Position numbers and translations under genes: made by a program | The notes under the pieces: generated by a model | Told to the model about the DNA's origin: nothing | The model's input: only the letters and a program-made list of their open reading frames with translations | Database searches by the model: none | In this document: positions 785 to 62,018 of the stretch, piece after piece | Position numbering within the stretch: the stretch's first letter is position 1 | Layout of the letters: each line of letters opens with the position of its first letter | Virus record (IMG/VR): IMGVR_UViG_3300036770_005052 | Span: 62,001 to 126,000 of that record | Origin: a virus | Reading direction: 5' to 3' (one strand) | DNA length: 64,000 bases

Positions 785-813
785 TTGCTATATAGATTGA
801 ATAGGGTTATAAT
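785..813 (+). promoter_or_regulatory. Sigma-70-type promoter for riboswitch-peptide operon
   Basis: TTGCTA at 785-790 is separated by exactly 17 bases from a perfect TATAAT at 808-813. Transcription should begin around 820, immediately before the structured leader at 824. This is a host-type promoter and suggests early expression. Confidence 0.75.
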
Positions 814-823
814 AATCCTCTAA

Positions 824-875
824 CGTTCATCCCTTTGGGACGGAAGTAAGCCGACTCGGAACGGATCGTTCATCT
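824..875 (+). promoter_or_regulatory. Glutamine-riboswitch-like leader (glnA / Downstream-peptide class)
   Basis: The leader shows the hallmarks I recall for this RNA class: CGTTC (824-828) pairs with GAACG (859-863); a small hairpin CCC-TTT-GGG lies at 831-839; then the conserved ACGGAAGTAAG (840-850) and CCGACT (851-856). CGG at 841-843 could form the pseudoknot with CCG at 851-853. Known members bind L-glutamine and control short peptide genes or glutamine synthetase control in cyanobacteria and their phages. The GGAACGGA at 858-865 lies where a ribosome site for the ATG at 876 would be, so forming the CGTTC/GAACG stem could hide it. Ligand is inferred from class membership. Confidence 0.8.
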
Positions 876-1028
876 ATGGAAACACTCATTCTGACATGCT
901 TACAAGCACACTTAATTGCTGGGAGAGTTCATCAACAGAACATTTCCAAACAGGTAAAGAATGATTTAATTTGGGAAATAAAACAGATCTCTCCAAAGGA
1001 GTGTAAAATAGACGCAAAAGCCGACTGA
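876..1028 (+). CDS. Riboswitch-associated 50-aa peptide (METLILTCLQA type)
   Basis: A 50-residue protein that begins METLILTCLQAHLIAG and ends with a SPKECKIDAKAD-like tail. I recall similar short peptides in marine cyanobacteria and cyanophages behind Downstream-peptide RNAs, but no function is established that I know of. By analogy with small glutamine-synthetase-inactivating factors controlled by the related glutamine riboswitch, a role in nitrogen signalling is plausible but unproven. The ATG at 876 lies six bases after the motif region CGTTCATCT. The stop sits inside a second aptamer-like segment (see findings). Confidence 0.75.
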   Translation: METLILTCLQAHLIAGRVHQQNISKQVKNDLIWEIKQISPKECKIDAKAD

Positions 1029-1067
1029 AGGAACGCTCTTTAACCTAAACCATTAAGGAGAAACCTA

Positions 1068-1202
1068 ATGTCTAAAGTCGTATATCGCGGTGTCGAATAT
1101 GATACCGAAGTTCGTCGCCAGCAACAGCAGGCACAACAGCAACCCCAACAATACAACGAAACCTATCGTGGTGTTAAGTTTGTGAAGGAGGGGCAAAAAT
1201 GA
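1068..1202 (+). CDS. DUF4278-like YRGV peptide
   Basis: A 44-residue protein with two copies of the YRGV motif, VVYRGVEY near the start and TYRGVKF near the end, joined by a Gln-rich linker. This is the signature of DUF4278, a small family common in cyanobacteria and cyanophages with unknown function. The start is fixed by a strong ribosome site AAGGAG at 1055-1060, eight bases before ATG. It is the second peptide of the riboswitch transcript and overlaps the next start by four bases. Confidence 0.8.
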   Translation: MSKVVYRGVEYDTEVRRQQQQAQQQPQQYNETYRGVKFVKEGQK

Positions 1203-1300: not shown

Positions 1301-1305
1301 TTTGG

Positions 1306-1332
1306 GAGGGGACTTGATCCCCTCTTTTTTTT
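1306..1332 (+). terminator. Intrinsic terminator
   Basis: GAGGGGA (1306-1312) and TCCCCTC (1318-1324) form a perfect 7-bp stem with a 5-base loop, followed by eight T residues. It ends the riboswitch-peptide operon. Confidence 0.95.
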
Positions 1333-61688: not shown

Positions 61689-62018
61689 ATGATTGACCTT
61701 TCACAACTGACCAAAGAACAACTCAACGAACTTGAACTTCAAATCCAAAAGCATAAGGAACAACAGAAGGTAAAGGATGCTTTGGAAAATCTAAAAGGTT
61801 ATAAAGTAACTTTTTATATGAGGTTTGACCCTGAAAAGCATAAAGATAATGATATGCTTACAGATGATGGAGAACTTGACCCAAACATTTTTGCTGATTA
61901 TCTGTGTGATAATCTTGTTACAGACCTGATTAGAAATTTTGAATTGTATGGTTATGAAGATGTGAGTTATCCTATTGTGGAGATAGCAACAGAAGAAGAA
62001 ATTAAACACCAATTTTGA
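61689..62018 (+). CDS. Hypothetical protein (109 aa)
   Basis: A 109-residue protein: a coiled-coil-like start (LTKEQLNELELQIQKHKEQQ) and an acidic beta/alpha end with DPNIFADYLCDNLVTDLIRN. No family recognised. Confidence 0.6.
   Translation: MIDLSQLTKEQLNELELQIQKHKEQQKVKDALENLKGYKVTFYMRFDPEKHKDNDMLTDDGELDPNIFADYLCDNLVTDLIRNFELYGYEDVSYPIVEIATEEEIKHQF

Follow-up and report, generated by a model that had tools for sequence, protein, structure and literature searches.

A candidate compound glutamine riboswitch of cyanophages with a small gene nested inside the RNA

Results

The locus and its features

The window (the whole stretch of DNA analysed here, 64,000 nucleotides, positions 62,001 to 126,000 of IMG/VR record IMGVR_UViG_3300036770_005052) is part of a viral record of 144,422 bases. 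Its annotated relatives are T4-like cyanophages, two of which carry thymidylate synthase and PhoH genes 3' of the element described here. The features of the locus are given in Table 1. A sequence-only reading that preceded this analysis had placed here an upstream promoter, the strings CGTTC (824-828) and GAACG (859-863), a TCCC/GGGA hairpin (830-833/837-840) and ACGGAAGTAAG, and all of these were found at those positions; promoter-like sites number 4 per 700 bases in this region, against 1.6 expected.

Table 1. Features of the compound element and its surroundings in the window.
Feature	Positions	Strand	Basis or remark
Sigma-70-like promoter, TTGCTA-N17-TATAAT	785-813	+	10/12 matches; transcript start inferred at ~820, just 5' of the RNA
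A1, CGTTC, P1 5' strand	824-828	+	Invariant in relatives, partly demanded by search patterns
P2 of half 1 (TCCC/GGGA)	830-840	+	Rfam match and pairing in relatives
Core of half 1, CGGAAGTA; many relatives have CGCAAGTA	841-848	+	Rfam match and relatives
X1 (shared helix, 5' strand), AGCCGACT	849-856	+	Covariation
B1, GGAACG, Rfam partner of A1; also weak candidate ribosome site for ATG 876	858-863	+	Rfam alignment
A2, second CGTTC	867-871	+	Relatives
P2' 5' strand, TCTAT; nested start codon begins at 876	873-877	+	Pairing in relatives
Nested gene, 50 amino acids (50 codons); TGA at 1026-1028, at the end of X2	876-1028	+	Open reading frame, relatives
P2' 3' strand, ATAGA	1008-1012	+	Pairing in relatives
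Core of half 2, CGCAAA	1013-1018	+	Relatives
X2 (shared helix, 3' strand), AGCCGACT; doubles as codons of the nested gene	1019-1026	+	Covariation
GAAG joining segment and B2 (GAACG), canonical glutamine-aptamer 3' end	1027-1035	+	Relatives
Hairpin CTCTTTAA/TTAAGGAG straight after B2, covering ribosome site AAGGAG	1036-1060	+	Sequence
Downstream gene, 44 amino acids, two YRG motifs	1068-1202	+	phrog_5049, E 3e-13
Third small gene, 33 amino acids	1199-1300	+	Weak phrog_545 match only
Terminator-like stem, 9 pairs, then T run	1304-1326	+	Transcript would be ~500 bases

Plain phage aptamers continue after the core with a P3 hairpin and then GAAGGAACG. In the family of the window, the core is followed by X1, GGAACG (B1), CGTTCA (A2), P2', CGCAA, X2 and GAAGGAACG (B2). 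The compound would consist of the halves A1-P2-CGGAAGTA-X1-B1 and A2-P2'-CGCAA-X2-GAAG-B2, with X1/X2 standing in for two separate P3 hairpins and a small complete gene occupying the P2' loop (other phages have one in P2, or one in each). Judging from the relatives, this layout of two aptamer halves joined by a shared long-range helix, with a gene within P2', is very probable.

Relatives of the element

Pattern scans of IMG/VR returned at least 119 stretches for the first part of the RNA and at least 120 for the junction GGAACGG..CGTTCAT. Elements were counted in 245 records (the collected loci and the window), among the matches listed. There, 173 junctions yielded 132 with a first CGTTCA at most 90 bases away and a later AAGGAACG; 116 of these were distinct, and 114 were parsed, of which 49 had a short P2' loop without a gene and 65 had a gene inside. 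The two left unparsed, L008 and L050, are full tandems of two glutamine aptamers with separate P3 hairpins. A further 31 distinct junctions, lacking a first CGTTC close by, were counted separately from the 114.

The four outer pairs of P2 were formed in 114, 114, 114 and 109 of the 114 listed elements, with several pair types, and P2' was a short hairpin in the gene-less ones. The strands of P1 never vary in the relatives, an invariance that comes partly from the search patterns. Either CGTTC may pair with either GAACG, and because the strands are invariant the sequences give no hint as to the partners; the Rfam evidence on this point is divided, since the halves of L062 match singly and L153 matches over its whole length.

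Two loci, L117 (from 4475) and L075, carry another glutamine-type element, with insertions after the core (beginning GTAGGAAAACCTGAAAACCTCC in L117) and no second half. In L117 the inserted stretch is followed by GAAGGAACGC and a YRG-type gene; L075 stops within the element. Other RNAs were seen near compound elements: manA RNAs (RF01745, >180 bits) at L126 2016-2201 and L145 2033-2229 (minus strand), in P-SSM4 and a metagenome contig, and PhotoRC-II RNAs on the same contigs at L153 1021-1116 and L169 5813-5907 (minus strand).

A helix shared by the two halves

X1 pairs with X2 in the window across the second half and the gene. Over the 34 distinct X1|X2 combinations among the matches listed, 79% of positions were paired, against 67% in shuffled combinations (sd 1.5); none of 2000 shuffles scored as high, and shifting the strands by 1-2 bases lowered pairing to 13-39%. 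Within the 49 listed gene-less elements (alignment A1), both sides had changed at six of the eight X1/X2 pairs, with 34 both-side-change cells against 14 in shuffles (0/500 as high). The outer pair occurs as A-U, G-C, G-U and once C-G, the inner pair as U-A, G-C and A-U; AGTCG/CGACT and AAACGAC/GTTGTTT are examples of strand pairs. The helix of the window contains two A-C mismatches, corresponding to alignment pairs 35-94 and 38-91, which are non-standard in 40 of 49 and 31 of 42 listed gene-less elements, respectively. RNAalifold did not draw X1/X2 spontaneously. In these alignments, X1/X2, P2 and P2' covary across the gene.

In S-SRM01 (L121 2440-2780) the outer X1/X2 pair is C-G instead of A-U. 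The C-G pair removes the usual stop codon, and so the nested gene continues into B2.

The most serious alternative to a compound aptamer is a pair of independent tandem glutamine aptamers, A1/B1 and A2/B2, each with a separate binding site and acting pseudo-cooperatively, in which X1/X2 would be a kissing contact and the gene a tolerated loop insertion; topology and the role of the gene would then be other than in the compound model. Such tandems are common (157 doublets and 4 triplets are counted in the available text of PMC9481103) and complete ones with separate P3 hairpins occur in L008 and L050. The halves also match the Rfam glutamine model RF01739 one at a time, at 35.4 and 24.8 bits in L062 and 33.3 and 24.4 bits in L124. 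Against this, a separate P3 hairpin is missing from both halves, the covariation of X1/X2 spans the gene, and the first half lacks the GAAG joining segment: GAAGG is present before B2 (1027-1031) and absent before B1 (858). The match in L153 extends over 87 bases from A1 to B2 with 43.6 bits, as a nested fold would, and the start and stop of the gene are fixed to helix positions (see below), unlike those of a free insertion. We consider tandem aptamers unlikely, at somewhat less than one chance in four.

Riboswitch class and probable ligand

A covariance search with the Rfam models (cmscan), proposed in the sequence-only reading, gave RF01739 (Glutamine) at 822-867 on the plus strand, with 36.0 bits against a cut-off of 35 (E 0.00042), the only Rfam match above its cut-off in the whole window. 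The P1 strands CGTTC/GAACG and the P2 hairpin of this family are both found in the window, with two candidate 3' strands for P1, and the conserved class-I bases (CGTTCA, GACGGAAGTA and GAAGGAACG) are retained. The local P3 hairpin between core and P1 is absent from the window, and the long-range X1/X2 is found instead. Most relatives tested scored below the RF01739 cut-off. For RF01704 (Glutamine-II, identical with Downstream-peptide) the window reached 17.6 bits and its relatives 24.6-28.9, below the cut-off of 33. Assignment to the glnA/Downstream-peptide class, as first proposed, thus stands for class I and is ruled out by score for Downstream-peptide RNA. The proposal of a glutamine-type riboswitch in a phage is supported by the covariance score and by relatives in many cyanophages. 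By these comparisons we class the RNA as an altered compound form of RF01739 and not as a plain member, because X1/X2 replaces the local P3.

The protein of the gene at 1068 is predicted to be DUF4278-like (PF14105; 19.8 bits, below the Pfam cut-off of 25.3); two of eight equivalents in other phages exceed that cut-off. In cyanobacteria, a DUF4278 domain makes up the N-terminal part of IF17, an inactivating factor of glutamine synthetase, the IF17 leader contains a glutamine riboswitch, and glutamine turns such genes on, as described in the available part of the review PMC6316151.

Given the retained class-I bases, glutamine is the probable ligand of the compound element. The fold could instead have been kept for another role (hiding of a start codon, protection of the 5' end, coupling of translation), with ligand binding perhaps lost. 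The scores at or below the Rfam cut-off speak for such a role, as do the core of half 2, which reads CGCAA instead of CGGAAGTA, and the folding energies, which do not favour the aptamer: relative to the free ensemble, RNAs forced into the nested fold lost a mean of about 9 kcal/mol in stability, and the window element lost 12.6 kcal/mol, a cost that the ligand and tertiary contacts would need to repay. The intact class-I bases in the window argue the other way, as does the family of the downstream gene, since DUF4278 is a family controlled by glutamine riboswitches in cyanobacteria, going by what is accessible of PMC6316151. A role apart from glutamine seems improbable to us, roughly half as likely as the tandem arrangement.

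The platform of the downstream gene

In the window, the hairpin that follows B2 has eight pairs and lies over the ribosome site of the gene at 1068. The marine relatives have a different platform, in which the aptamer segment CT[G/A]AAGG can pair alternatively with CTT[C/T]AG directly 5' of the ribosome site. Among the matches listed, marine 3' ends with TAAAGG had TTTAGGAG in 24 cases and TTCAGGAG in none, and those with TGAAGG had TTCAGGAG in 20 and TTTAGGAG in 24 (p 4e-5, uncorrected for kinship); this table leaves out 67 of the 135 distinct 3' ends, which have other sequence before the ribosome site. This covarying alternative helix predicts that in marine relatives aptamer folding would switch the downstream gene on with glutamine. 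The ribosome-site hairpin of the window abuts P1, and folding gives no direction for it. Forcing the aptamer hardly altered predicted access to the downstream ribosome site, which went from 0.29 to 0.31 in gene-type elements, from 0.22 to 0.23 in hairpin-type elements and from 0.04 to 0.04 in the window, and folding energies gave no usable result on the direction of the switch.

Single phage aptamers, in loci such as L006, L009 and L020, have a platform of their own, for example CGCACTT...AGGAGAAGTG or CGCACTC...AGGAGAGTG, with the look of a covarying hairpin at the ribosome site. The downstream gene of S-SM2 (L273 378-656) is annotated as starting within the nested gene (compare 454-621 in L271 and L274), and the ATG that matches the downstream start of other phages comes later.

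Genes nested in P2' and P2

In all 65 listed gene-type elements an ATG is located 4-6 bases past the beginning of the segment that follows A2, in or at the P2' 5' strand. The stop codon (TGA or TAA) falls at the X2/GAAGG junction in 60 of them; three genes stop 15 bases earlier, inside P2', with the core and X2 still kept beyond the stop codon, and two have no stop within the element. Runs of P2' pairs flanking the gene average 6.1, compared with 4.2 for shuffled sequences (0/2000 as high, 65 listed elements). The first five pairs are formed in 65, 65, 65, 63 and 58 of these 65, and several pair types occur at the third pair and beyond.

Codon use in the tail of the nested gene follows the RNA. 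Among the matches listed, the Asp codon of the tail is GAC in 59 of 59 genes at the first position and in 58 of 59 at the last (the remaining one encoding Gly), and the Ala codon is GCA in all 59. Asp codons in the gene bodies are GAT in 103 cases and GAC in 24, and 86 of 191 body Ala codons are GCA. The body of twelve window-like genes has a pN/pS of 0.39. By these measures the nested gene is doubly constrained, by protein selection in its body and by RNA selection in its tail.

These data bear on two simpler readings. One is a local class-I aptamer confined to 822-867, with GGAACGGA, as ribosome site for ATG 876, hidden in the closing stem and nothing belonging to the element past 875. The Rfam alignment covers just this stretch, and GGAACGGA lies directly 5' of ATG 876 and is the only purine-rich stretch ahead of it, as the sequence-only reading had held. 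The local model is incomplete, since the RNA encloses the gene, whose last codons and stop codon form part of it. In the Rfam alignment the local P3 is poor, X1 covaries with a strand on the far side of the gene (X2), the tail codons track the RNA, and both halves are retained in 49 distinct gene-less elements among the matches listed. The RNA does not end at 875 but runs from 824 to 1035, with an aptamer-type 3' end (GAAGG-GAACG, 1027-1035) after the gene. We therefore rejected the local pairing as the complete structure, and a purely local aptamer is very unlikely. The other reading, that the repeats arose by chance or descend from a DAKAD or WDAND tail of related proteins, draws on the conservation of the tail as a peptide too, and is refuted as far as sequence permits by the single codon used there despite synonymous choices, by the same RNA in the 49 listed gene-less elements and by its persistence past the stop codon in three elements.

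The nested protein of the window matches phrog_504, a family of unknown function, remotely (E 1e-3), and that of phage S-CAM8 matches it at E 5e-31. An AlphaFold2 model of the window protein is a two-helix hairpin (residues 8-20 and 25-38, mean pLDDT 85.6); Cys 8 and Cys 43 are invariant in the alignment. The last ten residues are modelled with lower confidence, which would fit a sequence dictated by the RNA. We disregarded the one solved-structure match (E 0.87) and an NCBIfam LicT match (16.9 bits, cut-off 300). No clear ribosome site precedes the nested gene.

Genes also occur in P2 of the first half. Among the matches listed, 26 of the 31 distinct junctions that lack an A1 close by hold one, with the ATG just after CGTTCAT and the stop at most 12 bases from the core; of the other five, three lie at most 200 bases from the end of the contig or stretch examined. 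The P2-lodged genes include other families, phrog_6471 and phrog_13397; the occupants of the two positions comprise phrog_504, phrog_6471, phrog_13397 and unclassified families. All 75 single-aptamer 3' ends in the collected loci had an A1 close by, so that none of them carries a gene in P2, in a sample biased by the search pattern.

Distribution in phages and hosts

The nested protein of S-CAM8 has relatives in 314 phage records. Thirteen isolates, picked by protein and not by RNA from 60 listed of these 314, were opened, and nine had the whole element: syn9, S-CAM4, S-SKS1, ACG-2014d, S-RIM2, SynMITS9220M01, S-SM2, S-CAM22 and P-RSM1. S-TIM5 and S-CAM1 have it save for the first part, which lies beyond the stretch examined. 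Sf-CH5 (L272 1-239) has only the second half and its gene, with a homing endonuclease gene in the place of the first half, and Bellamy has no element. Seven further isolate records, picked by DNA similarity, all had the element, which carries a gene in P2' in five of them and none in S-PM2 and S-CREM1, bringing the whole element to 16 of the 20 isolate records opened. The S-CREM1 record already labels its stretch "riboswitch, glnA". Both syn9 (gp196) and P-SSM4 have a second gene in P2 of half 1.

Among 300 genomes of the Prochlorococcus/Synechococcus family, 21 also contained the junction pattern. Of 20 host loci read around the junction, only that in G001, a phage-like contig of a Prochlorococcus single-cell genome, contained the element, and a host origin was rejected on this basis; four listed matches fell outside the reading, three in genomes with another match read and one the sole match of genome G178. 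A search for phrog_504 in 201 of those genomes gave no match, with a silent control, and is no proof of absence. The compound form is taken to be a phage feature, an assignment resting on one pattern.

Proposed mechanism

At high glutamine, the compound aptamer would be stabilised and P2' would sequester the nested start codon, turning the nested gene off; at low glutamine, a ribosome could start on it. A translating ribosome would then hold the 3' strand of P2', the second core and X2 open until the stop just before B2. Since the ribosome would undo the aptamer while reading the nested gene, translation and ligand binding would exclude each other, as we infer from the anatomy of the element. 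The downstream DUF4278-like gene would respond through its own platform after B2. Forcing the aptamer lowered calculated access to the nested start codon only modestly, from 0.27 to 0.22 on average and from 0.56 to 0.33 in the window, and exclusion of this start codon by the folded aptamer has, in our judgement, even odds. For the reading as a whole, in which 824-1035 is a compound riboswitch of cyanophages with mutually exclusive nested translation and ligand binding, we estimate a probability of about 0.55.

Discussion

Group I and II introns carry ORFs in peripheral loops of structured RNA. The elements described here likewise have a gene in a loop; they differ in having no ribozyme and in that codons of the gene form conserved helix strands.

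With class I (glnA RNA, RF01739) the element shares P1 CGTTC/GAACG, P2, the core CGGAAGTA and GAAGG before the 3' strand of P1; here, however, P3 would span the second half and a gene, and a gene is lodged in P2' or P2. With Glutamine-II it shares the strings CGTTCA-P2-CGCA and GGAACGG and the small peptide genes that follow. The P1 3' strand lies within P3 in that class, an arrangement expected of half 1 under a tandem topology. In Glutamine-II, however, P3 is local, and the scores here are below its cut-off. Both classes and their tandem occurrence have been published (PMC2864571, PMC9481103, each seen in part). For Downstream-peptide RNAs, the accessible text of PMC2864571 states that only the 5' leader seems conserved and refers the conserved peptide to its supplement. 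The tandem glutamine riboswitches of PMC9481103 have two aptamers per leader, as here; its available portion describes them as pseudo-cooperative doublets and mentions neither a shared helix nor an inner gene.

The M. tuberculosis metE B12 riboswitch, as presented in excerpts of PMC11260477, also has a translated short ORF inside an aptamer and an interplay of translation and riboswitch. In contrast to that bacterial B12 aptamer, start and stop codons of gene families would here form helix strands, in many phages and at two alternative gene positions. The gifB/IF17 leader of cyanobacteria has a glutamine riboswitch before a DUF4278-type gene, as here; a nested gene is not mentioned in the part of PMC6316151 available, and the function of the phage protein is putative. 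Glutamine riboswitches have already been noted in cyanophages (PMC9964418, PMC9602691) and in marine methylophages (PMC9004378), again according to partial texts. Thus neither the riboswitch class nor its occurrence in cyanophages is new. Our literature search brought up no account of glutamine riboswitches that contain a gene, share a long-range P3 between halves or accommodate gene families in P2, and the nested genes and the shared helix are apparently undescribed. Annotation based on Rfam mostly misses the compound element because each half scores around or below the cut-off.

If our reading is right, the gene sits inside the aptamer and not behind it, the same bases serving as codons and as aptamer strands, and the unknown families phrog_504 and phrog_6471 gain a regulatory setting. 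We suggest tentatively, at somewhat below even odds, that the P2 helices of this two-part glutamine riboswitch are slots in which cyanophages place whole small genes, and that one metabolite would set two genes in opposite directions, high glutamine turning the nested gene off and the glutamine-synthetase-inhibitor-like gene on. With a DUF4278-type gene beside a glutamine sensor, the element would be a possible route by which a phage reads and resets the nitrogen assimilation of its host.
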